DNA of 64,000 nucleotides from Agrobacterium pusense (lineage in GTDB: Bacteria > Pseudomonadota > Alphaproteobacteria > Rhizobiales > Rhizobiaceae), in assembly GCF_900102105.1 (NCBI RefSeq), contig NZ_FNBB01000006.1, positions 62,001 to 126,000 on the forward strand. The letters are read 5' to 3'. Made by a program: the position numbers and the translations under genes. The notes under the pieces are model-generated. The model was not told the origin of the DNA and ran no database searches. It saw only the letters and a program-made list of their open reading frames with translations. This document shows positions 1 through 22,237 of this stretch, piece by piece (position 1 is the stretch's first letter; each line of letters opens with the position of its first letter).

Positions 1-20
1 AGGTCGGTTTCCTTTGTCAT
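1..20 (-). CDS. Start of a leftward gene cut by the window edge
   Basis: Only the first six codons are inside the window, reading M-T-K-E-T-D. The case for a real start rests on context. An ATG at 20 is preceded by a purine-rich stretch (AGAAAGAGA) about 7 bases upstream. A perfect stress-sigma promoter lies on the same strand at 104-128, 84 bases upstream. Its neighbour treZ has a similar promoter facing the other way, so this is a divergent pair. The product cannot be identified from six residues. A partner enzyme of trehalose or glycogen metabolism would suit the location, but that is a guess. Confidence 0.45.
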
Positions 21-103
21 GTCACCGTCTCTTTCTGTCTTCAGGTCAGCGATCGGGCGGCAAGCTATGCCCGCCGAGCCGTCGTTTTGGCTGTTCAACG
101 GCG

Positions 104-128
104 AACGACGGCCAAACCCGTTTGTTCC
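104..128 (-). promoter_or_regulatory. EcfG-type promoter for the leftward gene at 20
   Basis: On the minus strand GGAAC (128-124), a 16-base spacer, then CGTT (107-104). This is a perfect match to the alphaproteobacterial general-stress sigma consensus. Confidence 0.75.
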
Positions 129-158
129 TTTCATCAGCATATTCCCGGTGCGGAGGCA

Positions 159-183
159 GGAACCGACCGACGGCGATCCGGTT
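159..183 (+). promoter_or_regulatory. EcfG-type promoter for treZ
   Basis: GGAAC (159-163), a 16-base spacer, then GGTT (180-183), 34 bases before the treZ start. It is divergent to the site at 104-128. Confidence 0.7.
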
Positions 184-216
184 AGGACCAAACGAGGCTG
201 ACTCGAGGTTCCGTGA

Positions 217-2006
217 ATGTTCAACGCAATGAAATATCGCAAATGGGGCGTGCAATTCGATGCTGCAGGAGATGCGCGCTTTCGCATCTGGGCGCCCGGT
301 TCTGATGCGCCGAGGCTCGTTATAAACGGCGCGGAATACGAAATGCGGTCTGAGGAGAACGGCTGGTACGAAGCCGTTGCAGCGAATGTGAGTAGCGGCG
401 CCACCTATCACTTTGTTCTGCCGGACGGGCATGAAATTCCCGATCCGGCCTCACATTGGCAGGAAGGCGGCCTGGACGGCCCGTCAACCGTCATCGATCA
501 CGACTTTGCGTGGCAGCATGAGAACTGGAACGGTAGGCCGTGGCACGAGGCTATGATCTACGAGGTTCACATCGGCACGTTCACGGAAGAAGGGACGTTC
601 CGGGCGGCCGAAAAGAAGCTGGAACGACTGGCTGAACTCGGCATCACCGTCATTGAGGTATGCCGCTCGCGAGTTTTCAGGGAGATCGCGGCTGGGGCTA
701 CGACGGCGTTCTGCAATTTGCGCCGCAGCGGGATTATGGATCGCCGGACGACCTCAAAGCCTTCATAGACGCGGCCCATGGCCTGGGGATGATGGTTTTG
801 CTGGATGTGGTCTACAATCATCTCGGGCCGGAGGGGAACTTCCTTCAAACTTATGCGCCCGACTTTTTTCAGAAAAACGAAACACCCTGGGGCCCTGCTC
901 CCGATTTCAACAGCGTGGATGTGCGATCATATTTCCTGCAAAACGCCCTTTACTGGCTTCAGACCTACCGTTTTGACGGGTTGCGGATCGATGCCGCCGA
1001 TCATCTGGCCGGCGGCGGCGGCGAGGTGGATTTCCTGACAGAGCTTGCCCAGACGATCAGGCACAAGGTGACGGGCAGGCATGTGTATCTTGTCATAGAG
1101 GATGCAAGAAACACGGCAAAGCCGATGACGCCCGAAGAAGATGTTCCGCCGCTGGTAGACGCCCAGTGGAACGACGACTTTCATCACGTCGTCCACGTCA
1201 TGACGACCGGCGAAGATGGCGGTCTTTATCGGGATTTCGTTTCGAACCCGGAGAGCCTGCTTCGTCGGTCGCTTGCGACCGGTTTCGTTTATCAGGGCGA
1301 TCCGCGCCCTTCCCGGGACTTTGCGAGGAGCGGCGAACGCAGCGATCATCTCTCCCCGCAAACCTTCGTGAACTTTCTCCACAATCACGATCAGGCCGGA
1401 AACCGGCTTTGCGGCGAAAGACTGCGTGCCCTGCTCGAACCAGCTCTTTTCGATGTACTAGAGTGCATTCTCCTGCTCTCCCCACAAACGCCGCTGATGT
1501 TCATGGGTGACGACCACGCATCGACGCAGCCTTTCTACTTCTTTTCCGACCACCCGCAACACGATCGGGAAGCCGCGATAAAAGGGCGGTTGCGGCAGGC
1601 TGAAATGTTTCAGGGAGCTCTTCCCGAGAACGCGCGCGATCTCGTCCAGGACCCCAATGACGTGCGCACGCGGCTCCTTTCTACCTTGAACTGGCGTCAA
1701 GCCGATGAGGAAGATGGGAGACGGGCAAGCGAGATCCTTGCAGGATTGCTCGCAAAGCGCCGGCAGCATGTCTGGCCCCTGCTCGCTTCGGAATTCGGAG
1801 GCGGGACGGCACTCGGTTCTCCTGCGCGAACGCTTGCCATAGACTGGGCGTTTGCGGCCGGCCGGTTGCAACTCAGGGCCAATTTATCCGATGCTCCGGC
1901 GGATCTGCCACCGGTGGAAGGGGAAATCTTCCACCGGCTTGGCGACATCAACGGGCAGACGGGGAAATCCTGCAGCTACAGTGTGCTGTTTGCAGTGGCC
2001 CGATGA
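217..2006 (+). pseudogene. treZ: treZ, malto-oligosyltrehalose trehalohydrolase, frameshifted
   Basis: TreZ is a GH13 enzyme that releases trehalose from maltooligosyl-trehalose in the cytoplasm. The N-terminal carbohydrate-binding domain (FRIWAPGSDAP near residue 22) and the start of the barrel (YEVHIGTF) are read from 217 up to about 657. The remainder is read in another frame from 660: GWGYDG, DVVYNHLGPEGN, the nucleophile Asp in GLRIDAADHL, the acid Glu in VIEDARN, and NFLHNHDQ. The two frames join at GITVIE / MPLASF, and one missing base at 658-660 (gag-gt-atg) explains the break. Adding one base gives 597 codons, the normal TreZ length. There is no other damage, so this is either a very recent mutation or a sequencing error. 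The 3' end nearly touches the convergent sigma factor gene. treY is not in the window. Confidence 0.85.
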
Positions 2007-2008
2007 TG

Positions 2009-2533
2009 TCAGGCGAGAGTGCGCCGCAGGGACTCGCGGGCGCGGTTGACGCGGCTCTTAATGGTGCCCACCCTGCAGCCGCAGATGGAGGCTGCATCGG
2101 CGTAGCTCGTTCCTCCGGCGACGAGCAGCAGCGCCTTCTTCTGATCCGCATCCAGATCGCGGATCGCGCGCATGACTTCATCATGCTCCATCCGCCATTC
2201 CTGACTGGCGGGGACCGACATCGTTTGCTCTATTCCCGCCGGCAGCCCGACGCATTCGCGCCTTCCAACCTTGTATCGGGTACAGAAGGTGTTCCGCAAA
2301 ATAGTGAACAGCCATGATTTCAGGGCTGTTCCGGGGGTGAAGCGGTGCAGGGAACGAAGCCCCCGCATCATGGTTTCCTGAACGAGATCGTTGACATCTT
2401 CGTCATTTCTGACGAAACGACGCGCAAACGCCGTCAGCGCTGGCGCTAGATCGGCAATTTCGATGCGCAAGGTCTCAAGTTGCGCTTCGCTTAGTGCGGG
2501 GCCGGACTCTTCATTTATAGCGTGTTTGGCCAT
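2009..2533 (-). CDS. EcfG-family (ECF15-like) RNA polymerase sigma factor
   Basis: This 174-residue sigma factor has only regions 2 and 4. Region 2 holds DLVQETMMRGL and LKSWLFTILRNTF. Region 4 ends in the helix-turn-helix ASICGCRVGTIKSRVNRAR, which is characteristic of the alphaproteobacterial general-stress sigma EcfG/RpoE2. The start at 2533 has an AAGGAAGG ribosome site; the reading frame runs 20 codons further upstream but those residues are unlike the family. A classic ecfG locus sits beside nepR and phyR, and neither is here, so this may be a paralogue. It is the last gene of a leftward group headed by an EcfG-type promoter at 3817-3841, which would allow autoregulation. The surrounding 22 kb is full of matching promoters. 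Confidence 0.88.
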   Translation of the reverse strand: MAKHAINEESGPALSEAQLETLRIEIADLAPALTAFARRFVRNDEDVNDLVQETMMRGLRSLHRFTPGTALKSWLFTILRNTFCTRYKVGRRECVGLPAGIEQTMSVPASQEWRMEHDEVMRAIRDLDADQKKALLLVAGGTSYADAASICGCRVGTIKSRVNRARESLRRTLA

Positions 2534-2628
2534 GGTCCTTCCTTTCACATAGAAGGGAAATGGCCCATCTGCCGCTTGGTTGCCGTACGCCAACGTACAA
2601 TGCGTATTTTTCGGCGGTGCCAGAGATC

Positions 2629-3324
2629 CTAGTGACCCGAAGGTGACGCGGCCTTCTCAGACGTCTCCGGCGAGGAGCGGGAAAGACGCAGCAGACGAAA
2701 ATACCCGGTTGGGGGGATCGTCCTGTTTTCCGCCAGATGGAATGACGGGTTGCGGCGCAGCCAGTCCTCGATCCCGTCCAGACGAAATGCCGAACTGAGC
2801 CCGATGTTATGGGCCACCGGCGAGACCATTTGTTCTATGCGGCGAACTGCGCCGCTGCTGTCGGTGATCTTGCTGACGATGACGATCTCGCCACGCGGCT
2901 TCAGCACTCGGGCGCATTCGGAAAGCAGCCGGCCGGTATCGGGAATAAGCGTGATGACGAAGGGCAGCGAAATCACGTCGAAGGACGCATCCGGAAACGT
3001 GGTTTCGCAGGCATCCATCACATGCAGTGCTTTCACATGCGGCAGCGAACCGCCTGCCACTTTTGTTTTGGCCTTCCGAAGCATGTCCGCTGAAATGTCG
3101 ATCCCGGTCACGTTGCTGGCCGGAGGATAAAGCGGAAGGACCAGCCCCGTGCCGACGCCGATTTCGAGAATGTCGCGACCGGCACCACCCACACATCTGG
3201 CCAACTCCATCTGCGCCCGCTTGAGAAAGAAGCCGTAGACACGGTCATAAACCGGGGCCCAGAACCGATATGCCTTTTGCTGCTGTGCCCGGTTCGGGAT
3301 GCTCGATACCGTTTCGTCGCTCAC
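2629..3324 (-). CDS. Class I SAM-dependent methyltransferase, Rhodobacter-type PmtA-like
   Basis: The protein has 231 residues and a Rossmann methyltransferase fold. Motif I is ILEIGVGTGL (near residue 52), the acidic end of strand 2 is VTGIDIS, and the later motifs are DVISLPFV and LKPRGEIVIVSK. The opening AYRFWAPVYD and the overall order resemble the Rhodobacter branch of phosphatidylethanolamine N-methyltransferases, which make phosphatidylcholine, rather than the Agrobacterium/Sinorhizobium PmtA branch. Lipid methylation is therefore plausible but not certain; a ubiquinone-type or small-molecule methyltransferase is the alternative. It starts 11 bases after the stop of the small gene at 3336-3593 and is followed by the sigma factor in the same direction. 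Confidence 0.75.
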   Translation of the reverse strand: MSDETVSSIPNRAQQQKAYRFWAPVYDRVYGFFLKRAQMELARCVGGAGRDILEIGVGTGLVLPLYPPASNVTGIDISADMLRKAKTKVAGGSLPHVKALHVMDACETTFPDASFDVISLPFVITLIPDTGRLLSECARVLKPRGEIVIVSKITDSSGAVRRIEQMVSPVAHNIGLSSAFRLDGIEDWLRRNPSFHLAENRTIPPTGYFRLLRLSRSSPETSEKAASPSGH

Positions 3325-3335
3325 TCGCCTCTCCC

Positions 3336-3593
3336 TCAGCGTGAAATGAACTTGTTGAAGCGGCTCTCGCCGCCCGACGTTCTGTCCTGATAAAGGAATG
3401 CCAGCTTCCTGTCCTCGAAGATTTCAAAAAACTCGTCCCATGATATGGCCTTCAGCGCATCCTCCGGCTCACCGAAATCGATCCTGAGGATCCCTCCATC
3501 GCCCGAGACGTCCACTTTGGCAGGGTGGCCATCGCGCTGCTCCGCCCATTTCCGTATCGTGTCATGATCGGTGGTTGTTGCCGATTCCGTCAT
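3336..3593 (-). CDS. Small conserved protein, often misnamed glucan branching protein
   Basis: This is an 85-residue acidic soluble protein with no signal peptide or membrane segment. The start at 3593 is preceded by AAGGAG at ideal spacing; upstream codons in the same frame are basic and unlike the rest. The pattern TTTDHDTIRKWAEQRDGHPA, followed by ISWDEFFEIFED and a C-terminal FNKFISR, matches a small rhizobial family that databases frequently label 1,4-alpha-glucan branching protein without any branching-enzyme domain. The function is unknown. Its position directly behind a GGAAC promoter suggests a stress role. Its first 32 bases overlap the end of the gene at 3562-3753. Confidence 0.72.
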   Translation of the reverse strand: MTESATTTDHDTIRKWAEQRDGHPAKVDVSGDGGILRIDFGEPEDALKAISWDEFFEIFEDRKLAFLYQDRTSGGESRFNKFISR

Positions 3594-3753
3594 CGTTGTT
3601 CTCCTTGTCTTCGTCGCGTCCATAGCGCGAGCGCCTTTCGCGTTCGGCGTTTTCTGTCGCCTTTTCACGGTCTTTGCGGCTTTCATCGCTTTCAGTCGAG
3701 CGTGCGTCATCGGTGCCGGGTTCGGGCCTGACATCGTCCTGTGATCGGGTCAT
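3562..3753 (-). CDS. Very hydrophilic 63-residue protein of unknown function
   Basis: The frame from the ATG at 3753 encodes a protein dominated by D, E, K, R, N and S (for example ESRKDREKATENAERERR), probably disordered. The start lies 64 bases downstream of the -10 element of the promoter at 3817-3841, and only a weak AGGGGC precedes it. The 3' end overlaps the next gene by 32 bases in another frame. I do not recognise a family. Stress-induced disordered proteins of this look are common in alphaproteobacteria. The alternative is that this stretch is only the 5' leader of the downstream gene. Confidence 0.45.
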   Translation of the reverse strand: MTRSQDDVRPEPGTDDARSTESDESRKDREKATENAERERRSRYGRDEDKENNDDGIGNNHRS

Positions 3754-3816: not shown

Positions 3817-3841
3817 AACCCCGGGAGCAAAAAGCGGTTCC
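3817..3841 (-). promoter_or_regulatory. EcfG-type promoter for the small genes, methyltransferase and sigma factor
   Basis: Minus-strand GGAAC (3841-3837), a 16-base spacer, then GGTT (3820-3817). It could drive 3753, 3593, 3324 and 2533 as one leftward transcript. Confidence 0.72.
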
Positions 3842-3857: not shown

Positions 3858-3882
3858 GGAACAGCATCGGCGTAAAAAGGTT
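3858..3882 (+). promoter_or_regulatory. EcfG-type promoter for the gene at 3904
   Basis: GGAAC (3858-3862), a 16-base spacer, then GGTT (3879-3882). It lies 21 bases before the start codon and 16 bases from the divergent site. Confidence 0.72.
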
Positions 3883-3903: not shown

Positions 3904-4134
3904 ATGACGAAGAAAGACAAGCTCGAGCAGATTCACAAGGACAGCGCGCCCCAGTTTGCTCCCGGCAAAAAGACCTCGACCAATAACGGCGTTGCGAGCG
4001 CGAAGCCGAGGGTCATCACCGGCTCGGACGACGCAACCGCCAACAAGCTACCACCAGGCACAAAAAAGCCGGAAAAAGACTGGGACATCAATTACGACGA
4101 GCGGGAAAGCAACGAGGGCGACTTTCGCGGCTAG
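3904..4134 (+). CDS. Small hydrophilic protein of unknown function
   Basis: This 76-residue protein is rich in K, D, N, T and P, with no hydrophobic segment. It opens MTKKDKLEQIHKDSAPQF and ends in an acidic tail (DINYDERESNEGDFRG). A strong AGGAGG ribosome site precedes the ATG. No known domain is recognised; the composition suggests an intrinsically disordered cytoplasmic protein. Its EcfG-type promoter, paired with the one for the opposite genes, is the only functional clue and points to expression under general stress. Confidence 0.65.
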   Translation: MTKKDKLEQIHKDSAPQFAPGKKTSTNNGVASAKPRVITGSDDATANKLPPGTKKPEKDWDINYDERESNEGDFRG

Positions 4135-4174: not shown

Positions 4175-4372
4175 CTACCGAGCCAGGTCCTCGACAACCA
4201 GTTCGATGGATTGCGGCTCGGCGCCCTCCTTCGTCTGCACGCTCAGAACACTTCCGGTGTTCAGCACGCCTTCGAGGAGCGTTCGACCGTCGATGGTGAT
4301 TTTGACCACCTTGGGGGTTGCAGCCTCTATGTTCAGGCTGTTGCAGGTCTCGTGATCAGTTTCCGGGTCCAC
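4175..4372 (-). CDS. Small protein of unknown function with a GTG start
   Basis: The 65-residue frame starts with GTG at 4372, preceded by TGGAGGT at good spacing. This is what decides the start. The predicted protein alternates beta-like stretches (PKVVKITIDGRTLLEGVLNTG and SIELVVEDLAR), with one Cys near the N terminus and no membrane segment. It may be a single small beta domain. No family is recognised. An EcfG-type promoter lies 36 bases upstream at 4408-4432, and the gene is convergent with the hydrophilic gene at 3904. Confidence 0.6.
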   Translation of the reverse strand: MDPETDHETCNSLNIEAATPKVVKITIDGRTLLEGVLNTGSVLSVQTKEGAEPQSIELVVEDLAR

Positions 4373-4407: not shown

Positions 4408-4432
4408 AACCACGGTCGGCTCCGGTTGTTCC
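4408..4432 (-). promoter_or_regulatory. EcfG-type promoter for the gene at 4372
   Basis: Minus-strand GGAAC (4432-4428), a 16-base spacer, then GGTT (4411-4408). Confidence 0.72.
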
Positions 4433-4467: not shown

Positions 4468-4492
4468 GGAACCACAAACGGCATGCGAAGTT
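4468..4492 (+). promoter_or_regulatory. Possible EcfG-type promoter for the dihaem cytochrome at 4567
   Basis: GGAAC (4468-4472), a 16-base spacer, then AGTT (4489-4492). It is divergent to the site at 4408-4432. The -10 is one base off CGTT but fits GGAAC-N18-TT. Confidence 0.6.
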
Positions 4493-4566: not shown

Positions 4567-5508
4567 ATGATGGTTCGCGAGACTCCCGGTTTTCATCTGT
4601 CGGTTCAGGCAGGCCGCCTGTTGATATGGTGTCTCGCAGCGGCGGCCTGCCTGGGGGGCTGGCTTCTGACCACGCCGAAGCCGGTCTTCGGACCGAACGA
4701 CATGGGATCATCGCCCGGCGATCCGCAGCAGGGAAGACTGGTATTTCTGGCATCAAGCTGCGGGTCCTGCCATGCCACGCCGGGACAGCCGGACTCGCTC
4801 GTGCTCGGAGGCGGATTGGCGCTTTCCTCCTCCTTCGGCGTTTTCCGTCCGCCAAATATATCCCCCGACATTGCCGACGGAATCGGCTCCTGGTCCGTTG
4901 AAGATTTCGCAAATGCGCTGGTCGCCGGCATATCGCCTGACGGCCGCCATTATTATCCGGCCTTTCCCTATACGAGCTATACGGGAATGAAGATCGAGGA
5001 CATAAAAAACCTTTACGCCTATCTTCGGACCCTGCCGCCTGTTTCCGGCAAAGCGCCGCCGCATGACCTGTGGCCGCCCTTCAGGTTGCGCCGTGCCGTT
5101 GGCGTCTGGAAGCTTTTGTTCTTCGACGAGGTCGGCAAGCCGCAGGCCATCACCGGCGATCCCGCTCTTGATCGCGGCTCCTATCTGACGGAGACGCTTG
5201 CCCACTGTGCCGAATGCCATTCCAGCCGTAATATCTTCGCCGCCATCCGCCCGGAAACCCGTTTTGCTGGTGGTCCCGACGCGGAAGGCACGGGCTTTGT
5301 GCCAAACATCACGCCGACACGTCTCAGCACGTGGACGCAGACCGACATCTCCACCATGCTCGCAACAGGCCAGACGCCACAGGACGGACATGTCGGGTCC
5401 GCAATGGTGGACGTGGTCGCCAATCTTTCGCAGTTGCCACAGGAAGATCGCGACGCGATTGCCCGCTACATCAAGGCCTTGCCGGCAAGGCAAACCCCGC
5501 ATCCGTGA
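4567..5508 (+). CDS. Dihaem c-type cytochrome, membrane-anchored
   Basis: This 313-residue protein has an N-terminal hydrophobic anchor (residues 16-36) and two c-haem sites: CGSCH near residue 65 and CAECH near residue 215. Met and His residues around TPTRLSTW and GHVGSAMVDVV could supply distal ligands. The two-domain layout resembles the cytochrome c subunits of membrane dehydrogenases and c4-like carriers that pass electrons to a terminal oxidase from the periplasmic face. It converges on the cox operon, separated by only 4 bases from the operon's last gene, so it may feed that oxidase. Which dehydrogenase donates electrons is unclear. ATG at 4570 is an equally possible start. Confidence 0.82.
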   Translation: MMVRETPGFHLSVQAGRLLIWCLAAAACLGGWLLTTPKPVFGPNDMGSSPGDPQQGRLVFLASSCGSCHATPGQPDSLVLGGGLALSSSFGVFRPPNISPDIADGIGSWSVEDFANALVAGISPDGRHYYPAFPYTSYTGMKIEDIKNLYAYLRTLPPVSGKAPPHDLWPPFRLRRAVGVWKLLFFDEVGKPQAITGDPALDRGSYLTETLAHCAECHSSRNIFAAIRPETRFAGGPDAEGTGFVPNITPTRLSTWTQTDISTMLATGQTPQDGHVGSAMVDVVANLSQLPQEDRDAIARYIKALPARQTPHP

Positions 5509-5512: not shown

Positions 5513-5920
5513 TCAGTGAGCATAAAGATAGGCCGCGACATGGCGCGCTTCGGCCTCGGTGATACCGGTTTCCGGCATAGCGCTCTGCCGCGAAAAATGC
5601 GTCGGCGAGACAATCCAGCGAATGAGGTTGTCCGGTGTGTTGTTGAGGCCGTCACCGATATAGACCCGCTGGCGAAGTGAACGTAGTTCGCCCCCCACCT
5701 TCCCGTCCGCACCGGCAACGCCGGGGATCGCGTGGCAGCCCGTGCAGCCGTAGCGCCGGAAAATCCCGGGCGCCAGGCGCGCATCACCGCCCGTCATTGC
5801 CGTGGCAACGGCGCCGCGCTGTGACACGTTCTTGACGATTGCGACCGCAATGCCCGTGGCAAGCGCCGCCGAAAGCACCGCAACGAGTATAAGGCAGGTT
5901 CTAGAGAAGGGACGCGCCAT
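5513..5920 (-). CDS. Monohaem class I cytochrome c
   Basis: The protein has 135 residues, an N-terminal hydrophobic signal/anchor (residues 8-30) and one haem motif, CTGCHAIPG, near residue 58. A later Met in QSAMPETGIT is the probable axial ligand. The start at 5920 has a GGGAGGA ribosome site. It is the last gene of the leftward oxidase operon and overlaps the CtaG-like gene by 20 bases. It is a likely electron carrier to, or accessory of, the CuA-type oxidase encoded upstream. Confidence 0.82.
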   Translation of the reverse strand: MARPFSRTCLILVAVLSAALATGIAVAIVKNVSQRGAVATAMTGGDARLAPGIFRRYGCTGCHAIPGVAGADGKVGGELRSLRQRVYIGDGLNNTPDNLIRWIVSPTHFSRQSAMPETGITEAEARHVAAYLYAH

Positions 5921-6788
5921 ATCGGTCCTCCCTGCCCGACCGGGAAATCCACATCGCCAGCATCGCGAGCGCCGCCCCGGCATAGATGACACCACCGGGC
6001 ACCCACATCAGGAGACCGGCAAGCTGCTGGTCCTCGAAGGGCGTCAGGCCCCATGCCGGCGCGTCTCGGGTCTGGGCCACGTAAATCACCTGTGGCGCAA
6101 GCGCGATCAGGGCGCCGAGAATGCTGGTATGCATCATCGTGACAAACAGGTGCCAGGCCGCAAGCCCCCGGTCCGCGCGCCAGAAAACTGCCCACCAGAA
6201 CAGGATCGCTGTCAGAAAGAAAAAGAGATGCTGTATCCGGTGCAGCGGCACGTTGCTGACCGTCGCATCGAAGAGCGCAGGCGCATGCCAGCCCCAGATG
6301 GCAAGCCCGTGCAGAGATGTTGCCACACCCCCGCCGGCAAGAACATTCCATCCGGCACGAACGCGCCTGTCGGTCATCACCGCAGCCAGACGACGACGAA
6401 CCATGCGCGGCATGCTCCAGAGAAGGATACCGACGGGGCGCGCCAGCACGATCAGCGGCGCGGCAACCGCCATTACCATCTCGTGCTCTATCATGTGGAA
6501 TGTAAACAGGTGCTCGCCCATGGAATGGATCGGAGAGACAAGTGCAGCAACCAGAACAAGCCAGCCGCCGGAAAAGGCGAAGGCGGACCTCGCCATCCAC
6601 CGGCGTGTGCCCGACCGTCTCCACAGCCGAAAAAAACCGGTACTGAAAAGGCCGGCTGCGACAAGCAGCGGTCCGATGATCCAGCCGTCGAAAGTCCATA
6701 TCATCGCCGTCGGATGCGCCTCCCCCTCATGGGCCGAGAGCGGCCCGGCGCTGACCAGCAACAGAAAGATCAGTGTCAGCGCGTGCAT
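5901..6788 (-). CDS. ctaG: CtaG-like (caa3_CtaG family) oxidase assembly membrane protein
   Basis: The 295-residue integral membrane protein has a cleavable-looking N terminus (LLLVSAGPLSAHEG) and about seven hydrophobic spans. The repeated His-rich motifs HMIEHEMVM, LHRIQHLFFF and MMHTSILGA are typical of the caa3_CtaG family, which is needed for haem-copper oxidase assembly, probably copper handling. This family is unrelated to the Cox11-type CtaG. The start overlaps the preceding gene by 13 bases with no clear ribosome site, suggesting translational coupling. The family commonly sits in operons for cytochrome oxidases that carry a fused cytochrome c, as here. Confidence 0.8.
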   Translation of the reverse strand: MHALTLIFLLLVSAGPLSAHEGEAHPTAMIWTFDGWIIGPLLVAAGLFSTGFFRLWRRSGTRRWMARSAFAFSGGWLVLVAALVSPIHSMGEHLFTFHMIEHEMVMAVAAPLIVLARPVGILLWSMPRMVRRRLAAVMTDRRVRAGWNVLAGGGVATSLHGLAIWGWHAPALFDATVSNVPLHRIQHLFFFLTAILFWWAVFWRADRGLAAWHLFVTMMHTSILGALIALAPQVIYVAQTRDAPAWGLTPFEDQQLAGLLMWVPGGVIYAGAALAMLAMWISRSGREDRYGASLL

Positions 6789-7087
6789 GGGTTCAGCAGC
6801 AATGTCGCTGCCCCCTGAAGAAGGAGTGCGAAGGCAAAAACCAGCGCGACCAAGACGCCCAACGACGTCAGGAACACCGCCATTCGCGATGCCGTGGAAC
6901 TCCGGCCCCTTTCCGAAAGAACGCCGCAGGTAACGGCTATCCCGGCAGAGAGGAAGGCGGCGGTGGCTGCAAAGCCCGTCCGGCTGCCGCAATCGACCGC
7001 CGGCAAGATCTGGCCGAGCTGCGTGTTGAACGCCCAGATCAGGGGAGCGCCGAACAGTCCGGCAATATCGAGGGTTTTCAGGGTCAT
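6776..7087 (-). CDS. coxP: Small three-helix membrane protein of the oxidase operon (CoxP-like)
   Basis: The protein has 103 residues and three predicted membrane spans (residues 8-28, 40-58, 72-96). The start at 7087 overlaps the stop of the subunit III gene as ATGA. In rhizobial coxMNOP operons a second short subunit-III-like product, CoxP, occupies this position. The assignment here is by position and topology; sequence features alone are not diagnostic. It probably sits in, or helps assemble, the oxidase complex. Confidence 0.6.
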   Translation of the reverse strand: MTLKTLDIAGLFGAPLIWAFNTQLGQILPAVDCGSRTGFAATAAFLSAGIAVTCGVLSERGRSSTASRMAVFLTSLGVLVALVFAFALLLQGAATLLLNPCTR

Positions 7088-13724: not shown

Positions 13725-13749
13725 GGAACTTTCGCGCGGACACCCGGTT
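13725..13749 (+). promoter_or_regulatory. EcfG-type promoter for the alcohol dehydrogenase
   Basis: GGAAC (13725-13729), a 16-base spacer, then GGTT (13746-13749), 60 bases before the start codon. Confidence 0.72.
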
Positions 13750-14979: not shown

Positions 14980-14988
14980 GAGATGATC

Positions 14989-15783
14989 ATGAGCAGGGAA
15001 GAATCCACCAAGGGCCTTGCGGTCGTCACCGGCGCTTCGTCCGGCATCGGTTATGAACTCGCCCGATGCGCCGCGCAGGATGGTTACGACCTCATCATCG
15101 TGGCCGATGAAAATGACATCGATGCCGCGGCCACCCGGCTGCGCGCGGCCGGCACGCAGGTGGAAGCGGTGCGGGCCGATCTTTCGACACAGGCGGGCGT
15201 GGAGGAGCTTCTCGCCCGCATCACCGCCTCGTCGCGGCCAGTCGATCTTCTGTTCGCCAACGCAGGACAGGGCCTGGGCGATGGCTTTCTCGATCAGAGA
15301 ATGGAGGACATCCAGCGGGTCATCGCCACCAATATCAGCGGCACGATTGCGCTGGTTCATGCCCTTGCAGGCGGGATGCGCCAGCGTGGCAATGGACGTA
15401 TCCTGTTTACGGGTTCCATCGCCGGTTTCATGCCGGGCACGTTTCAGGCGGTCTATAACGCCACCAAAGCGTTTATCAATTCCTTTTCCTTCGCGCTGCG
15501 CGAAGAGCTCGATGGCACGGGTGTGACGGTAACCTGCCTAATGCCGGGCGCGACGGACACGGAGTTCTTCGAGCGTGCGGACATGCTTGACACCCCCGTT
15601 GGCAGACAGAAGAAGGACGATCCCGGTTTCGTGGCCAAGACCGGCTATGAGGCGATGATGAATGGTGAGGGCGATGTCGTGTCCGGCTGGAAAAACAAGC
15701 TGATGTCGGCGATGGCCAATGTAACGCCGGCGGAAACGCTCGCCAGACAACATCGCAAGATGGCAGAGCCGGATGGGAAATAG
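14989..15783 (+). CDS. SDR-family oxidoreductase
   Basis: The 264-residue classical short-chain dehydrogenase has the cofactor motif TGASSGIGYEL, the conserved FANAGQG, the catalytic Ser in LFTGSIAG, and YNATK carrying Tyr and Lys. The full catalytic set is present. Two ATGs lie at 14983 and 14989; AGGAG at proper spacing supports the second. It is almost certainly co-transcribed with the zinc dehydrogenase. It resembles stress-linked short-chain reductases of the YqjQ/DltE type; the substrate is unknown. The 130 bases after it hold no convincing gene. Confidence 0.85.
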   Translation: MSREESTKGLAVVTGASSGIGYELARCAAQDGYDLIIVADENDIDAAATRLRAAGTQVEAVRADLSTQAGVEELLARITASSRPVDLLFANAGQGLGDGFLDQRMEDIQRVIATNISGTIALVHALAGGMRQRGNGRILFTGSIAGFMPGTFQAVYNATKAFINSFSFALREELDGTGVTVTCLMPGATDTEFFERADMLDTPVGRQKKDDPGFVAKTGYEAMMNGEGDVVSGWKNKLMSAMANVTPAETLARQHRKMAEPDGK

Positions 15784-15914: not shown

Positions 15915-16082
15915 TTAATTCCGCATTGCCACCGCGAAGTTCTCCGCCCCTCGGCGGGCATCCCGTTCTTCCTTCGACCGCTTCAGCTCCGCCTCGGCGT
16001 TAAAATCATCATCGGCATTAGCGGTGTTCTCGCGTTTTTCGATGATGCGGAGCTGTTGTTCATGCGTTTTTGGACCGGCCAT
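15915..16082 (-). CDS. Small charged protein of unknown function
   Basis: The protein has 55 residues and is probably one long amphipathic helix followed by a charged tail (HEQQLRIIEKREN, LKRSKEERDARRG, ending NFAVAMRN). The ATG at 16082 has an excellent AGGAGG ribosome site; the frame extends six codons upstream without support. The Arg/Glu-rich make-up and small size resemble stress-induced alphaproteobacterial proteins. An EcfG-type promoter lies at 16156-16180. Confidence 0.68.
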   Translation of the reverse strand: MAGPKTHEQQLRIIEKRENTANADDDFNAEAELKRSKEERDARRGAENFAVAMRN

Positions 16083-16155: not shown

Positions 16156-16180
16156 AACCACGGAGGGCGACAGAAGTTCC
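16156..16180 (-). promoter_or_regulatory. EcfG-type promoter for the gene at 16082
   Basis: Minus-strand GGAAC (16180-16176), a 16-base spacer, then GGTT (16159-16156). Its -35 directly abuts the -35 of the divergent promoter. Confidence 0.72.
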
Positions 16181-16205
16181 GGAACGAAAAGGCATGGGGG
16201 AAGTT
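16181..16205 (+). promoter_or_regulatory. EcfG-type promoter for the gene at 16270
   Basis: GGAAC (16181-16185), a 16-base spacer, then AGTT (16202-16205). With the opposite site it forms the palindrome GTTCCGGAAC. Confidence 0.7.
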
Positions 16206-16269: not shown

Positions 16270-16482
16270 ATGGCACATGCAGACAGGAAACACTTCGGAA
16301 AAGGCACGCAGGGGAAAGGTACCGGCGCAGGCGCAATGACCGAGCTGGACAAGGGAAGCATTGAGGAAAACCAGATCCTTTCCAACCGCGACAAGAAGCA
16401 GCATTCGAAAGAGCGGGGCCAGGACGGTGCCGCCATCAAGACCGATCAGGAACAGGACCACGCCGCCAACAGGCGTCCCTAG
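16270..16482 (+). CDS. Small hydrophilic Gly/Gln/Lys-rich protein
   Basis: The protein has 70 residues and no hydrophobic segment. It begins MAHADRKHFGKGTQGKGTG and contains SNRDKKQHSKERGQD and QEQDHAANRRP, again probably disordered. AGAGGAGG at ideal spacing fixes the ATG at 16270; longer frames upstream cross the promoter and are rejected. It resembles small uncharacterised rhizobial proteins that sit near catalase and CsbD genes. The function is unknown. Its promoter and composition suggest a desiccation or osmotic-stress role. Confidence 0.68.
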   Translation: MAHADRKHFGKGTQGKGTGAGAMTELDKGSIEENQILSNRDKKQHSKERGQDGAAIKTDQEQDHAANRRP

Positions 16483-16533: not shown

Positions 16534-17193
16534 TCACCCGCCGGTCTCGCTATGGGGTGCTGCCACAGGCTTGGATTCGGGCGACCGCCTGAACCGCAGG
16601 AAGATGGACAGGACGATCAGGACAGCGGTGGAGAGGAATTCCGACTGCCAATTCTGGAAGGACTCGAACCAGAACTTAACGCTTCCCAGATGCGCCATCA
16701 ATGTCGTCGCAGGTTCGCCATGCAGGCGTGCCTCCACTGCCGCGGCATCGGCGCTGTATCTCAGATGCAGCAGGAAGCTCGCTACAAAAAGAACAAACAG
16801 CGCCACGCCGAGCGAATAGGAATAGACGACGCGAATGATGCCGCCGGCCCTTACCGGCCATGGTGCATCAGGGTCGTTTTTCTTGCGTGAAGGGTCCTCG
16901 TCTTGCGCTGTCGGCTCATCGGGATCCTTGGATTCTGCGGACCCGCGCTGGAACAGGAATGCCGTCAACACCACATAGGCCGACATCTGCAAAAATTCGC
17001 TTTCCCAGTTTTCGAACAGCGCCGAAAGGAAATGCCCGCTCGTGGCGTAGGATAAAAGCGTGAGTGGTTTATCGTGATGTTGCACGAGTTCATCATTGTG
17101 AACGACCCAGCCTGTGGCGAACATGCCGCCGATCGTCAGCAGTGATGCAAGGACAAGGACGATGGTCAATCCGTTGTCGCGGACAAGCTTCAT
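16534..17193 (-). CDS. DUF6766-like four-helix membrane protein
   Basis: The 219-residue protein has two similar halves, each with two membrane spans (about residues 8-28, 60-76, 115-137, 180-198). A charged cytoplasmic linker (ESKDPDEPTAQDEDPSRKKND) separates them. The pattern FENWESEFLQM in the first half recurs as FQNWQSEFLST in the second, an internal duplication that defines this family. The function is unknown. GAGGT precedes the ATG at 17193. It lies downstream of the catalase gene in the same direction, with a hairpin between them. No own GGAAC promoter was found. Confidence 0.75.
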   Translation of the reverse strand: MKLVRDNGLTIVLVLASLLTIGGMFATGWVVHNDELVQHHDKPLTLLSYATSGHFLSALFENWESEFLQMSAYVVLTAFLFQRGSAESKDPDEPTAQDEDPSRKKNDPDAPWPVRAGGIIRVVYSYSLGVALFVLFVASFLLHLRYSADAAAVEARLHGEPATTLMAHLGSVKFWFESFQNWQSEFLSTAVLIVLSIFLRFRRSPESKPVAAPHSETGG

Positions 17194-17331: not shown

Positions 17332-19485
17332 TTATCCGTTAGCGACAGGGACTGATGCCTTCCCAAGCTTGACCGATGGTTCGCGCGCCCAAACGCGCAA
17401 CTTGCCGAGTTCGGAAACAAAGGCTGCCAACCCGTCTTCTCCCGGCAGAGGCAAGACGCCCTCATCCATGGCATCGGCAATTCCGGCCTTTTCCAGCAAT
17501 GGCAGGGCCGACTGGTCATAACCGATGAACTTGCAGTGCTGGAACGCATCCGCGACAAAATCACGGGCCGTTGCTTCCTTGACGAGATCGTCGATGGCCT
17601 CTGCCGATGTCAACAAGGCCACCGCATCAAAGAGAACCGAAGGACCGCCATCGATCATGTAATGCGCTTTGATGAGAGTGCCGTCCGAAGCCACGGCGCC
17701 CCCGACTTTAGGCGCGATCAACTCGAAGACGGCCTTCTCGGCCGTAACAGACTCGGTCAGCCCCTGCAGCAATTTTGCGTCGACGCCATCCGTAATGAGA
17801 ATGCCGAGCTTTCGTCCTTCGAAACGTTGCGGCCCTCGATTGACGATGCTGAGGGCGGGTGAGGGCTCCAGGTCCTGTCGGGTCGGCACTGCCGCCTCCG
17901 CCGGTTTAGGCATCGTCTGGAAACCAAGCTTCTGGGCAACGGTCGACGCAAGCGTTTCATCGATGTTGAGGAGGTGTGACACCATCCGTTCACGTATGGC
18001 GACCGTCTCCACCCTGCTCAGCTCGAAAGTGAGGGCGGAGGCGATATGGCGCTGTTCGGGAGGAGTCTGGCTGAGATAGAATTGCCTCGCCTGACTATAG
18101 TGATCTGCGAAGCTCTCCGGCCGCAATCTCGCCTTGGCGCCCTGCTCTTCGCCTGCAAAATGTGTAAAGCCGCGCGCTGGCGATTCTCGCGGGCCTTCGC
18201 CAAAGGAGTTTGGCTGATAATTGGCGCGCCCGGTTGGATTGCGCATCGCCATGTGGCCATCCTGCTGGAAATGCGCGAAGGGACACTTGGGCGCATTGAT
18301 GGGCAGGTGCGTGAAGTTCGGCCCGCCGAGACGCTTCAATTGTGTATCGAGATAGGAGAAATTTCTTCCCTGCAGCAGCGGGTCGTTACTGAAATCGATT
18401 CCCGGCGGCACGTTCTGCGTCATGAACGCCACCTGTTCGGTTTCGGCAAAGAAGTTGTCTGGCATGCGGTCGAGAACCAGCCTGCCGACCGGCTGCGGCG
18501 GCAATATCTCCTCGGGAATGATTTTGGTGGGATCGAGGACATCGAAATCGAAGCTTTCGGCGAAATCCTGGTCGAAAAGCTGGACCTGCAACTCCCATTC
18601 CGGAAAATTGCCGGACTGGATGGCCGCCCAGAGATCGCGACGGTGGAAATCGGGATCGGCACCATTGATCTTCACCGCCTCGTTCCACGCCACGGACTGG
18701 AGACCCAGCTTCGGCTTCCAGTGAAACTTCACGAAAGTCGACTGGTTTTTCGCGTTGATGAAACGGAAGGTGTGCACGCCGAACCCTTCCATGAACCGGA
18801 ACGACCGCGGAATGGTGCGGTCGGACATGATCCACATGACCATGTTCATGCTTTCGGGCGTGAGGCTGATGAAATCCCAGAACGTATCATGAGCCGTTTG
18901 CGCCTGCGGAAAGTCGCGGTCTGGCTCCTGTTTTGCGGCATGGATGAGGTCGGGAAATTTGATGGCGTCCTGGATGAAGAATACCGGGATATTGTTGCCG
19001 ACGAGATCCCAGTTGCCTTCCTGCGTATAAAGCTTGACGGCGAAGCCGCGCACGTCGCGCGCAAGATCGAAGGAGCCCTTATTGCCGGCCACGGTCGAAA
19101 AACGCACGAAAGCGGGGGTTTTTTCGCCCGCACGCTGGAAAAGATCCGCTTTCGTGTAGGCGGCCAGGGAATCGTAGGTCTCGAAATAGCCATGGGCCCC
19201 ATAACCGCGGGCGTGAACGACACGTTCTGGAATTCGCTCATGATCGAAATGAAAGAGCTTTTCCCTGAAATGGAAATCGTCCATGACAAGCGGGCCACGA
19301 GGACCGACGCGAAGCGTATTCTGGTCATCGGCGACGGGCCCGCCCTGCGCGGTCGTCAAGACGGGTGCGTCGCCTTCGGCGGTCTGGTGCAACTCGCCGC
19401 CCTCGCCGCGGGAAAGTTTCTGGTCGTGGATCGTAACAACGTCGATTTTTCCCGCCGATGCGGTGGTTTCCGGTTTTTTGGCCAT
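17332..19485 (-). CDS. katE: Large-subunit (HPII/KatE-type) monofunctional catalase
   Basis: The 717-residue enzyme converts hydrogen peroxide to water and oxygen. The catalytic His lies in [12 protein letters not shown] (near residue 90) and the heme-proximal Tyr in NFSYLDTQ (near residue 374). The extra C-terminal domain (residues 570-710, [18 protein letters not shown]) is the flavodoxin/PfpI-like module found only in large catalases such as E. coli HPII. No signal peptide is seen. AGGAG precedes the ATG at 19485. The gene follows the YflT-like gene after 45 bases and is probably co-transcribed with it. Its place amid EcfG promoters fits stationary-phase or general-stress control known for this class. 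Confidence 0.93.
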
Positions 19486-19530: not shown

Positions 19531-20136
19531 TCAAAGCGCCGAGCGGCGATATCGGTTCCGCTCCTGCTCAACATCTTCAGCGGCGTAGGGCCTCGACGTT
19601 TCGTCAAAACGCGTCCAGCCCTCCTGACCATAGGCCGAACGCCGTTCGAAGGGGTCGACCCAATTCGAGCGTCGGAGGATAGCCTCCGCCTCAGGCACGA
19701 AATCGTCTTCAACCCGCGCAGTGACTAGAGTTCCGCCTCTGCGCACGCCCTCCGCATAGACATTGGCGTCCTCTTCCGAAACGCCTGAGCGGGTCATGGC
19801 TCCGATCAATCCGCCAGTGGCTCCTCCGGCAACAGCACCGCCTGCCGCACCGACGGCGGTGGCGGCCAGCCAGCCAGCGGCGACGACGGGTCCGACACCG
19901 GGTATAGCCATCATGCCGAGGCCCGTCAGCAGGCCGCCGGCGCCGCCGACAATGGCCCCGATGCCGGCACCGGTGCCGGCACCTTCAGCGGCTTTGCTGT
20001 CCTCGCCGTGGCGTCTGTCGGCGTTACTGGCCACAATGCTGATGTCGCTTGAGGGGATGCCCGCGCGCTCGAGTTCGCTGACGGCGTTACTCGCATCATC
20101 ATAATCATCAAAAAGTGCAGTTACGGTTCTCATCAT
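19531..20136 (-). CDS. YflT/general stress protein 17M-like membrane protein
   Basis: The 201-residue protein has an N-terminal ferredoxin-like alpha/beta domain (VTALFDDYDDASNAVSELE, residues 4-45). Then comes a long Gly/Ala-rich hydrophobic hairpin (about 60-115, with repeated GAGGAVAGG) and a C-terminal domain (SGVSEEDANVYAEGVRRGG) with a charged tail. This order is typical of the general-stress family that pairs a YflT domain with a glycine-zipper. The function is unknown, possibly membrane stabilisation. Two adjacent ATGs (20136, 20133) share one GGGAGAA site. It lies 36 bases after the frameshifted small secreted gene, so the promoter at 20571-20595 may serve all three genes including catalase. 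Confidence 0.78.
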   Translation of the reverse strand: MMRTVTALFDDYDDASNAVSELERAGIPSSDISIVASNADRRHGEDSKAAEGAGTGAGIGAIVGGAGGLLTGLGMMAIPGVGPVVAAGWLAATAVGAAGGAVAGGATGGLIGAMTRSGVSEEDANVYAEGVRRGGTLVTARVEDDFVPEAEAILRRSNWVDPFERRSAYGQEGWTRFDETSRPYAAEDVEQERNRYRRSAL

Positions 20137-20172
20137 GTTTCTCCCAAAAGTCCGTGCGCTTAAGTCCTGCCC

Positions 20173-20489
20173 TCACCTGGCGACAACGTTGCCCTGGTAA
20201 TCGAGTGCTATGGCCACGGTTTTTCCGTCTTTCATTCCCGATGCCATCCACACGCCCTTGTCATTCTTGGTGAGGCCTGTGATCCCGGTGTAACCGGACT
20301 CCTCCATCCGCTTCTTCGCCTGCGCCTCCGTGAAGCTGTTGGCGCCTTCCACCGGAGCCGTCGGGCTTTTCGTGTCCGGCGTCACAACCGCCGGCGTATC
20401 ACCACCGGGATTGGCTGTCGGAGCCTGCTGGGCAAAGGCCGAAACAGCCCCTGCTCCAACAAAAACGCCATGAAAAAAGTCTTCTTCAT
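20173..20489 (-). pseudogene. Small secreted protein, frameshifted in the signal peptide
   Basis: The mature part reads VGAGAVSAFAQQAPTAN, then an acidic linker, then a compact domain (FTEAQAKKRMEESGYTGI...MKDGKTVAIALDYQGNVVAR) of the small secreted PepSY-like kind common in rhizobia. The natural start is the ATG at 20489, which has a GGGAGGAAG ribosome site and encodes MKKTFFMA. That frame is one base short of joining the mature part; the shift lies between 20464 and 20485, in or next to runs of six and five A. An in-frame start at 20514 exists but has no signal peptide. A single missing base restores a 105-residue precursor, so this may be an assembly error. Confidence 0.7.
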
Positions 20490-20537
20490 TTGGGTCTTCC
20501 TCCCTTTTCACCATCGGCCATACTTCCCGTCGGAGGC

Positions 20538-20565
20538 GGTGCCTTTCCGGCCCGGGAAAGGCACC
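20538..20565 (-). other. Stem-loop at the predicted 5' end of the small secreted gene mRNA
   Basis: An 11-bp perfect stem (GGTGCCTTTCC with GGAAAGGCACC) and a 6-base loop begin about 6 bases downstream of the -10 element at 20571-20574. It would form at the very start of the transcript. Its role is unknown. Confidence 0.55.
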
Positions 20566-20570
20566 TTCCG

Positions 20571-20595
20571 AACGAGGCGCGAGGCGGAGAGTTCC
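20571..20595 (-). promoter_or_regulatory. EcfG-type promoter for the 20489 gene and probably katE
   Basis: Minus-strand GGAAC (20595-20591), a 16-base spacer, then CGTT (20574-20571): a perfect consensus. Confidence 0.75.
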
Positions 20596-20682
20596 AAAAA
20601 ATAATGAGGGGTGCCGCTTGAACCGTCGCCTTTGCGCGGCGACCGAGGCGGTGCCTGTTCACCAGCCGGAACAGGACCCGCG

Positions 20683-21300
20683 CTACTGATCGCTGCCGGG
20701 ATACGGGGAATTCCTGAGAAGAGCCGCCAGGTGCGCGGTATTGCGCACCAGCATGCTGACCATGGTTTTGACGGCATCGGGCGTCTTGTCCAGATCGACG
20801 AAATTCGTCGACCCCATGGCTTCCCCGACCCAATAGGCAACCGCATTGGCCGGGATGGTGAAGCCGACGTCATTCAGCGCCTGAAAGAGCTCCGCCGAGA
20901 CATGGTGGGCGCCGTCTTCATTTCCGACAACTGCGACAGCCGCAACCCGGCCATAAGAAACCATCCGACCCTCATCATCGGTTTCCTCCAGGAATGCATC
21001 CATGCGCTCCAACGCTCTCTTGCAAACGCTCGAAGGTTGGCCAAGCCAGATCGGTGTTCCCATGAGCAGGATATCGGCCTTCAGTATCTTTTCCCGAATG
21101 GCCGGCCAGGCATCGCCTTCGCCCTCGTCTGAACTGACGCCCGGCTTGATATCGTGATCGGCGAGCCTGATCGTCTCGGCCTTGATATCCTGGCTGGCGA
21201 ATTCCCGTAATATGAGGTCTAGCAGCTTCTCGGTGGAGGATGGTTCGGACGTGGCCGACGGTTTGAGCGTCGCGTTCAAAGCAAGAACGGTGAGTGGCAT
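20683..21300 (-). CDS. Flavodoxin-like NAD(P)H-dependent FMN reductase family protein
   Basis: The 205-residue protein has a flavodoxin fold. The phosphate-binding stretch is LNATLKPSATSEPSSTEKLL, close to the start as in NADPH-dependent FMN reductases. A second motif GTPIWLGQPSSVCKRALERMDAF holds the isoalloxazine loop, and GNEDGAHHVSAELFQAL is typical of the family. It probably reduces quinones, azo or nitro compounds using FMN. AAGGAG precedes the ATG at 21300. A 7-bp hairpin (20653-20674) follows the stop but lacks a U tract. The gene is leftward and lies downstream of the iron-permease-like gene. Confidence 0.8.
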   Translation of the reverse strand: MPLTVLALNATLKPSATSEPSSTEKLLDLILREFASQDIKAETIRLADHDIKPGVSSDEGEGDAWPAIREKILKADILLMGTPIWLGQPSSVCKRALERMDAFLEETDDEGRMVSYGRVAAVAVVGNEDGAHHVSAELFQALNDVGFTIPANAVAYWVGEAMGSTNFVDLDKTPDAVKTMVSMLVRNTAHLAALLRNSPYPGSDQ

Positions 21301-21381
21301 GGTAACTCCTTCTGCCATACGGTCTTTCCAGGGTTTGGAAAGTGTTGTGAACAATGATCGGCCATCGATCAGGGCCGGTGA

Positions 21382-21789
21382 CTAACGCCGGGAAAGCAGA
21401 CGATCCATGGCGTGATGGGGCGGCGGCTTGTGGCTTTCCCGCCCGTTTTCTTTTTCGAGACGGGTCCGGATCTCCTCGATCTCGTCCTCTGTCAGATGCT
21501 CGATGCCGATGAAGTCGGCGCGCGCCTGCTCTACAGCCCGCAGCAACTCGTCCAGTTTCGCCTCCATCGCGGCGGAATCCCTGTTCTGGGAATTCTGTAC
21601 GAGAAAAATCATCAGGAAGGTGACGATTGTCGTGCCGGTGTTGATGACGAGTTGCCAGACCTCGGAAAAATCAAACAGGGGTCCGCTGATGCCCCAGATG
21701 AGGACGGTGGCGAGCGCCACGACAAAGGCGCTGGGCGAACCTGAGAAAGATGCGATACGGCTCGCAAAGCGAGTGAAGAACTTGTTCAT
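21382..21789 (-). CDS. Low-affinity iron permease family membrane protein
   Basis: The protein has 135 residues. Two membrane spans (residues 20-38 and 46-66) are followed by a cytoplasmic coiled region (MEAKLDELLRAVEQARADFIGIEHLTEDEIEEIRTRLEKE). This topology and the motif LVQNSQNRDSAAMEAKLDELL are characteristic of the bacterial PF04120 proteins named after yeast Fet4. A transport function in bacteria is unproven; many are stress-induced. It has an EcfG-type promoter 70 bases upstream (21859-21883), divergent to csbD. Confidence 0.82.
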   Translation of the reverse strand: MNKFFTRFASRIASFSGSPSAFVVALATVLIWGISGPLFDFSEVWQLVINTGTTIVTFLMIFLVQNSQNRDSAAMEAKLDELLRAVEQARADFIGIEHLTEDEIEEIRTRLEKENGRESHKPPPHHAMDRLLSRR

Positions 21790-21858
21790 GACACGCTGAA
21801 CCCTGCGGCTCGACACGAAAGCAAAGCCCGGTAAGGACCGTCGCTTTCCAGTGAAGTT

Positions 21859-21883
21859 AACAATCGAGGGCAGCGATTGTTCC
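21859..21883 (-). promoter_or_regulatory. EcfG-type promoter for the 21789 gene
   Basis: Minus-strand GGAAC (21883-21879), a 16-base spacer, then TGTT (21862-21859). Confidence 0.68.
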
Positions 21884-21973
21884 GTGATGTAGAAACACAC
21901 ACAGAAAGGAATTCCGTGCCGCGCTTTATCTTCGCCCAATGTTTCAAGCCCGGGTGAGATGTTCGCGTTTTGC

Positions 21974-21998
21974 CGGAACCCGATCTGCCTTCGCACAT
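21974..21998 (+). promoter_or_regulatory. Possible EcfG-type promoter for csbD
   Basis: GGAAC (21974-21978), a 16-base spacer, then CATT (21995-21998). It fits GGAAC-N18-TT but departs from CGTT at two positions. It lies 35 bases before the start. Confidence 0.5.
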
Positions 21999-22033
21999 TT
22001 ACAGGTGCAGACCAAAAACAGTGGGAGGATCCA

Positions 22034-22237
22034 ATGGATTGGAATCGTGTTGAAGGCAACTGGAAGCAGATGAAGGGCAAGGTCAAGGAGCAGTGGGGCA
22101 AACTCACCGACGACGATCTTGACGTCATCAACGGCAAGCGCGAACAGCTGGAAGGCAAGATTCAGGAGCGTTACGGTTACGAGAAGGACCGCACCCGAAA
22201 AGACATTGACGACTGGTATGGTCGCCAGACCTGGTAA
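22034..22237 (+). CDS. CsbD-family stress protein
   Basis: This 67-residue protein matches CsbD almost throughout: MDWNRVEGNWKQMKGKVKEQ, LTDDDLDVINGKREQLEGKI, then a Tyr-rich tail YGYEKDRTRKDIDDWYGRQTW. CsbD proteins are small, highly charged and strongly induced by general stress; the biochemical role is unknown. GGAGG precedes the ATG at 22034. A good intrinsic terminator follows immediately. It is divergent to the iron-permease-like gene. Confidence 0.92.
   Translation: MDWNRVEGNWKQMKGKVKEQWGKLTDDDLDVINGKREQLEGKIQERYGYEKDRTRKDIDDWYGRQTW

Follow-up and report, generated by a model that had tools for sequence, protein, structure and literature searches.

A plasmid stress island of Agrobacterium pusense and a candidate promoter class for its non-canonical EcfG-type sigma factor

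For the Rhizobium etli sigma factor EcfG1, the reported promoter motif is GGAAC-N16-CGTT (Jans et al. 2013, PMC3892343). The same 2013 survey counted extra EcfG copies in about half of the complete alphaproteobacterial genomes; their spread is left unexplained there, and a motif search of the EcfG2-regulated genes of R. etli is reported to give no hits. The R. etli paralogue sigma-EcfG2 is described there as autoregulated, as preferring its own promoter and as required for oxidative-stress resistance. Here, we analyzed a 64,000-nucleotide stretch of Agrobacterium pusense (the window; contig NZ_FNBB01000006.1), which encodes an EcfG-type sigma factor amid a dense cluster of GGAAC-N16-NGTT sites. 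We consider it likely that the first 22 kb of the window form the right half of a plasmid stress island of about 42 kb, and that its promoters constitute a distinct class, GGAAC-N16-GGTTAGG, read mainly by the island's own sigma factor. Among titles and abstract openings of the open-licence literature, we found no account of an EcfG island in Agrobacterium and no EcfG2 motif.

A cluster of promoter-like sites on plasmid DNA

We scanned both the window and the assembly it comes from, whose nearest matches are Agrobacterium (5.28 Mb in 28 contigs; the contig holding the window is termed C12, and the window starts at C12:62001). The pattern GGAAC-N16-NGTT is equivalent to GGAAC-N17-GTT, and spacings are given as the number of bases from GGAAC to GTT. 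The window contains 12 such sites, all within its first 22.3 kb. The fixed spacing put forward in the original prediction is borne out, as each other spacing between 10 and 25 occurs zero to four times; GGAAC alone occurs 140 times in the window, 62 of them in the first 22.3 kb. The 12 sites of that prediction are all present on the predicted strands, 11 as NGTT and one as NATT. A further exact site at 2351-2375, on the plus strand and antisense within the sigma gene, was absent from its list. Genome-wide, we counted 222 sites (159 SGTT and 63 WGTT, with 87 and 60 in the reversed-pattern controls), and therefore 0.94 sites are expected per 22.3 kb; the density of the first 22.3 kb thus exceeds that of the genome, the comparison that had been suggested as a check (P of at least 12 sites, 4e-10).

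The cluster does not end at the window's edge. It reaches approximately 20 kb further left, to C12:42732, such that C12:42-84 kb holds 19 sites in 42 kb (P 8e-14); both P values are post hoc, as the stretch was picked by eye. We recovered 221 of the 222 genome sites and classified them as inside or outside genes called by a simple codon-usage script trained on the genome itself. The 11 listed GTT sites all lie outside called genes. The cluster is real and strongly non-random. Along its entire length, the 22.3-kb stretch aligns at 97.6% with the A. pusense plasmid CP135083.1, and the part of the island left of the window has matches in plasmid genes whose annotations are glgA, glycosyltransferases, Crp/Fnr regulators, and a ferritin-like protein. 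Judged by these matches, the island is plasmid DNA. The proposed single physical cluster thus stands in that ECF-type (extracytoplasmic function) promoters precede stress-type genes far more densely than in the rest of the genome, although its left boundary had to be moved.

The same spacing dominates around related sigma genes. Relatives with 80-98% identity were found on 31 plasmid records listed, including pAt of strain C58, and stretches from 14 of these records were examined. They contain 148 sites at spacing 17 (4-19 per stretch), against 9-33 for any other spacing between 10 and 25; the reversed pattern yields 7-52 per spacing, with 19 at spacing 17. Across 80 named loci from Rhizobiaceae and related bacteria, we counted 413 sites at spacing 17, 111 at 18, and 23-45 at each of the other spacings from 12 to 22. 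In 37 stretches around close sigma relatives (L025-L031, L105-L118, and L291-L306, the last set partly repeating the first), 257 of the 270 spacing-17 sites lie outside called genes, versus 60 of 191 for spacings 14, 15, 16, 18, 19, and 20 pooled. At three loci (L076, L093, and L095), GGAAC-N18-GTT is as common as, or commoner than, the N17 form (9, 10, and 9 versus 7, 5, and 8 sites), so an extra spacer base seems to be accepted in these lineages.

The -10 element of the island promoters

The island had been matched to the published GGAAC-N16-CGTT consensus, and for most of the sites this match did not survive inspection of the base before GTT. That base is C in 2 of the 19 island sites (G 12, A 2, T 3; 17 non-C). 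Within the genome's promoter-like sites, C precedes GTT in 2 of 15 in the island versus 42 of 66 on other contigs (P 5e-4), where "other contigs" denotes the genome minus C12, C19, C21, and C28, and may still include partly plasmid contigs such as C15 and C16. C12 was assigned to plasmids by its 97.6% match to CP135083.1, and C19, C21, and C28 by pieces that are 100% identical to A. pusense plasmid NZ_CP097634.1.

We then considered the 37 related stretches, counting near-copies (up to five mismatches) once, which also drops one of the 66 sites from the contig set. The 77 remaining sites yield the position profile GGAAC-N16-GGTTAGG, in which the second base after GTT is G in 83%. C precedes GTT in 6 of 77 sites versus 42 of 65 on the other contigs (P 3e-13), G occupies +2 after GTT in 64 versus 16 (P 1e-12), and +3 in 45 versus 13 (P 3e-6); these P values treat sites as independent. 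Since the profile of the other-contig sites is flat after GTT, AGG as a part of every EcfG promoter was ruled out. The shift recurs among 55 sites from 21 R. etli-clade loci, with C before GTT in 7 of 55 (P 4e-9), G at +2 in 35 (P 2e-5), and G at +3 in 29 (P 2e-4). Composition does not explain it, because C is the most frequent N of background intergenic NGTT, whichever of the two kinds of DNA is considered.

Defining the class as a non-C base before GTT and G two bases after it, we counted 62 members among the 77 close-relative sites, 32 among the 55 from the R. etli clade, and 8 among the 65 on the other contigs. On C12, it comprises 14 of 20 outside-gene sites, all 14 of them in the island. 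The class extends beyond the island, however, as it also marks sites on C19 (7 of 9), C21 (4 of 4), C28 (2 of 7), and C15 (6 of 12); C10 (0 of 20) and C6 (0 of 10) have none. It is retained around sigma copies within 2.9-Mb contigs, presumably chromosomal, of two genomes (G017 and G045), where C precedes GTT in 0 of 15 sites (L291-L294). The sites of another set of paralogues (group C, in which row L069 was counted here, though labelled D in the tree below) have no AGG extension and a mixture of C and G, and those of group D are intermediate; we therefore do not claim the motif for all non-canonical EcfGs.

Three further observations concern neighboring loci. C58 pAt (NC_003064.2) has one sigma match at 479 kb and a second, shorter one at 280258-280677; the 262-300 kb region that holds the latter (L295 and L296) carries ten sites over 38 kb, in which the base before GTT is G six times, A twice, T twice, and never C. 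In another orphan EcfG group from Rhizobium, Peteryoungia, and others (L052-L073), the distance between the sites and the sigma gene hardly varies, and a CGTT site lies about 100-125 bp upstream of the matched sigma part in 17 of 22 loci. Finally, a second, looser cluster at C10:335-374 kb (L003 and L004) has seven GGAAC-N17-GTT sites, six of them CGTT and two overlapping on opposite strands (C10:341665 and 341667), near a distant ECF sigma gene (C10:338.9 kb, 32% identical to the island sigma) that lies next to an open reading frame resembling an anti-sigma gene.

The island sigma factor and its proposed reading of the island promoters

By sequence, the island sigma belongs to the ECF15/EcfG family: it has sigma2 and sigma4 domains (Pfam Sigma70_r2, 5e-16; r4_2, 2.6e-12; PhyR_sigma2, 1.1e-4, below its cut-off), and EcfG-type proteins are closest. 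Its identity is 59% with the R. etli p42f sigma (WP_011428363, taken to be PF00052 because of its position on p42f), 41% with the EcfG of its own genome, and 32% with another ECF encoded there; among the 25 of 71 NCBIfam families listed, no equivalog model attained its cut-off. The prediction of an EcfG-type sigma inside the island was thus right as to type, but this is not the canonical EcfG, whose trio with nepR and phyR is on contig C6 (C6:236 kb). The NepR model matched once in the whole genome, on C6, and the genome's own NepR as a tblastn query gave no hit in the window, the 80 loci, or the 14 plasmid stretches, although a very divergent NepR could escape such a search. We found no PhyR beside the island sigma and no anti-sigma for it. 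These sequence comparisons identify it as a non-canonical EcfG paralogue, plasmid-borne and with no NepR found nearby, like the EcfG2 subgroup of Jans 2013, despite the copies in 2.9-Mb contigs elsewhere. In a quick tree of 58 rows, the Agrobacterium-group sigmas form a single group at 100, as do the canonical EcfGs, and 12 Agrobacterium-group, 10 R. etli-group, and 4 other rows join at a Shimodaira-Hasegawa-like approximate likelihood-ratio (SH-aLRT) value of 85, below the 95 mark.

Region 2.4 of a sigma factor reads the -10 element and region 4.2 the -35 element. In region 4.2, helix positions 156, 157, 159-161, and 164-166 are identical in every aligned sigma row. In region 2.4, residue 84 is C in 35 of 35 and 21 of 21 rows versus Y in 25 of the 26 rows nearest canonical EcfG, and residue 87 is Y in 34 of 35 and 21 of 21 versus I in 21 of 26. 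We propose that the island genes are transcribed from the GGAAC-N16-GGTTAGG class and that the island sigma, rather than canonical EcfG, would be its main reader: most of region 4.2 is kept, which would preserve the -35 GGAAC, while the changed region 2.4 would account for the altered -10 element. Under this model, residues 86-87 are the better specificity candidates, because the changes at 82 and 84 are shared by group C, whose sites lack AGG. Stress would presumably induce the island genes, and the sigma probably stimulates its own gene run through the site at 3817-3841, a candidate case of autoregulation. A site lies at most 1.7 kb upstream of sigma on the same strand here and in 12 of the 21 related stretches, which makes positive feedback plausible, though not a general feature. 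On a broader proposal we are evenly divided: that plasmid EcfG2-type sigmas of Rhizobiaceae evolved this promoter class by changing region 2.4 while region 4.2 stayed largely fixed, and carry a dense cluster of targets, a stress regulon that would move between plasmids and chromosomes as a unit, partly insulated from NepR-PhyR-EcfG.

A number of observations weigh against this assignment. Region 4.2 is not wholly kept (residue 154 is R versus mostly P), group C paralogues share T82 and C84 and yet their sites lack the AGG extension, and 9 of 21 stretches have no site upstream of sigma. Two island sites are CGTT, one of them heading the catalase gene, and some of these promoters may be read by canonical EcfG. 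The class was defined after viewing the island, which leaves the R. etli clade, profiled afterwards, as the only independent repeat. Among the 257 outside-gene sites, a called start lies within 350 bp on the same strand for 159, on the opposite strand only for 37, and on neither for 61, so that 98 have none on their own strand. C58-type plasmids are sparse, with 4-5 sites in 40-49 kb (L105, L117, and L118) versus 6-19 in the other stretches. In R. etli, we found no site upstream of katG, reported as EcfG2-dependent in PMC3892343, and none in the right direction upstream of ecfG2. A genome-wide link, by which sigma-bearing genomes would hold more GGAAC-N16-GGTT, was not seen either: in the genus set, 13 of 39 genomes have a sigma copy of at least 63% identity (each of the 39 has, in addition, a match at 38-40% that is presumably canonical EcfG), and these 13 hold 634 sites versus 538 for the control pattern, compared with 1156 versus 1000 in the 26 without (P 0.79).

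The rival explanation with most in its favor, which we nevertheless judge unlikely, is that the island is an ordinary canonical EcfG regulon in which the chromosomal EcfG, freed from NepR by PhyR, reads all GGAAC-N16-NGTT sites and the plasmid sigma is an amplifier. The identical -35 element and spacing, the largely common region 4.2, and the two CGTT sites fit it, as do published accounts: one motif, ggAAC-N16-cgTT, is assigned to both R. etli sigmas (PMC4167512), the R. etli phyR promoter is recognized by both paralogues (PMC3892343), and both Sphingopyxis granuli EcfG paralogues do best on CGTT while up to 14 -10 boxes are described (PMC7083833). Against it stand a three-position shift seen around sigma genes in two clades and not at the other-contig sites, and the finding that each R. 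etli paralogue prefers its own promoter (PMC3892343).

That the altered -10 class is simply a trait of plasmid DNA, whichever sigma reads it, appears quite improbable. C19, C21, and C28, where we found no sigma copy (the copies listed are on C12 and C6), do lack C in 10 of their 11 promoter-like sites, as this explanation would have it, but the island sigma could act on them in trans; moreover, the copies in 2.9-Mb contigs keep the class, the C-rich intergenic background is common to both DNA kinds, and both promoter-like C12 sites away from the island are CGTT. Chance or shared ancestry, with a few sites copied along with the island, has next to no claim on the data: the loci are related and have some genes in common, yet 77 sites remain after removing those within five mismatches, gene content varies widely among loci, and spacing 17 alone stands out in Agrobacterium (18 being second in the wider set). 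We retain reading by the island sigma as the favored explanation.

Gene content of the island and its place among known systems

The island features within the window are compiled in Table 1. The original prediction saw one physically clustered stress regulon; we find a variable module, as gene content differs widely among 21 related stretches (14-49 kb), although genes past a stretch's end would be missed in this count. Sigma is present in all 21; catalase is found in 12, as is the YflT gene, treZ (its 3' part) in 9, and CtaD in 5. One stretch, a near-copy, has CsbD and the small proteins encoded at 15915 and 16270. L107 is 97.6% identical to the window. The treZ gene is annotated next to sigma in L106, L108, and L110-L113. 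Nor is the island uniformly marked by promoters, as the 5.5-13.6 kb block of cytochrome oxidase and FdhF-like genes has no exact site inside it.

Two predicted gene models also required revision: in the assembly, treZ and the PepSY-like gene at 20489 are each split between two reading frames, which amounts to two apparent frameshifts over 21 kb. In the latter, the signal-peptide start (20489) and the body (ending 20173) are in different frames. Several relatives have treZ annotated as one gene, and pAtLMG305 (L114) has it as two annotated pieces. The 63-amino-acid protein is a candidate partner of sigma; charged proteins of 55-63 amino acids upstream of sigma, also found in L109, L110, L112, and L106, have a conserved PEPGTDDARS stretch.

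Table 1 Promoter-like sites and genes of the island within the window (aa, amino acids)
Feature	Position	Strand	Remarks
GGAAC-N16-CGTT site	104..128	-	Before leftward gene starting near 20; 84 bp to called start (L002)
GGAAC-N16-GGTT-AGG site	159..183	+	Before treZ
treZ (malto-oligosyltrehalose trehalohydrolase), broken	217..2006	+	Overlapping frames 217-768 and 660-2006
Non-canonical EcfG-type sigma factor (by sequence)	2009..2533	-	No NepR found nearby
Class I S-adenosylmethionine (SAM) methyltransferase	2629..3324	-	Shares gene run with sigma
85-aa protein	3336..3593	-	Without Pfam match
63-aa charged, probably disordered protein	3562..3753	-	Homologue just upstream of sigma in 12/21 stretches
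GGAAC-N16-GGTT-AGA site	3817..3841	-	Heads gene run ending in sigma
GGAAC-N16-GGTT-AGG site	3858..3882	+	
76-aa disordered-type protein	3904..4134	+	In 13/21 stretches
65-aa protein	4175..4372	-	No Pfam match above cut-off; in 13/21 stretches
GGAAC-N16-GGTT-AGG site	4408..4432	-	
GGAAC-N16-AGTT-CGA site	4468..4492	+	
c-type cytochrome	4567..5508	+	
Cytochrome c oxidase block (CtaG-like, CtaD, CoxB, cytochromes c)	5513..11184	-	Same order in L106; CtaD and CoxB above model cut-offs, CtaG-like below
FdhF/YdeP family molybdopterin oxidoreductase	11203..13605	-	
GGAAC-N16-GGTT-AGG site	13725..13749	+	
Zinc-dependent alcohol dehydrogenase	13810..14979	+	
Short-chain dehydrogenase	14983..15783	+	
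55-aa charged protein	15915..16082	-	
GGAAC-N16-GGTT-CGT site	16156..16180	-	
GGAAC-N16-AGTT-CGG site	16181..16205	+	
70-aa disordered-type protein	16270..16482	+	
DUF6766 protein	16534..17193	-	
Large-subunit catalase (HPII/CatE type)	17332..19485	-	HPII model 910 bits, below cut-off 1102; catE in relatives
YflT-domain general stress protein	19531..20136	-	
PepSY-like secreted protein	20173..20514	-	Start region apparently frameshifted; PepSY name taken from relatives
GGAAC-N16-CGTT-CGG site	20571..20595	-	Heads PepSY-YflT-catalase
NADPH-dependent FMN reductase	20683..21318	-	
Low-affinity iron permease family protein	21382..21789	-	
GGAAC-N16-TGTT-AAC site	21859..21883	-	
GGAAC-N18-TT site (NATT)	21975..21999	+	Before csbD
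CsbD-like protein	22034..22237	+	

We would class this as the island of a non-canonical EcfG whose -10 element is shifted, and it offers a candidate motif for the open question of the extra EcfG copies. With such a motif found both in Agrobacterium and among R. etli-clade loci, that question can be put to the test: the motif can be compared with the ecfG2 regulon published for R. etli and with the start-site maps from differential RNA sequencing of A. fabrum C58 (PMC10469942). If the proposed reading is true, the island would show how a stress regulon can be acquired as a unit, and might provide a naturally near-orthogonal sigma/promoter pair.

Among described systems, Sphingopyxis granuli likewise has two paralogues, EcfG1 and EcfG2, with flexible -10 boxes of which CGTT is the commonest; point changes away from CGTT lowered in vitro transcription there, and the available part of that report describes no separate promoter class for a paralogue (PMC7083833). 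Sinorhizobium meliloti RpoE5 (SMb21484) is similarly a second ECF15 sigma on a secondary replicon, but it is reported to have one putative target on overexpression, its expression depends on RpoE2, and an unannotated NepR-like open reading frame adjoins it (PMC6180224), a case which warns that a divergent NepR near the island sigma could be missed. With the canonical EcfG/RpoE2 response and its NepR-PhyR partner switch, the island shares the -35 GGAAC, the 16-base spacer, the GTT core, and the kinds of target genes; the canonical system differs in its CGTT -10 element, in having nepR and phyR beside sigma, and in region 2.4. The closest counterpart is R. etli sigma-EcfG2 (p42f, PF00052), which is also non-canonical and plasmid-borne with no NepR or PhyR beside it, and for which, in contrast to the motif search without hits reported there (PMC3892343), the loci of its clade share the candidate motif described here.

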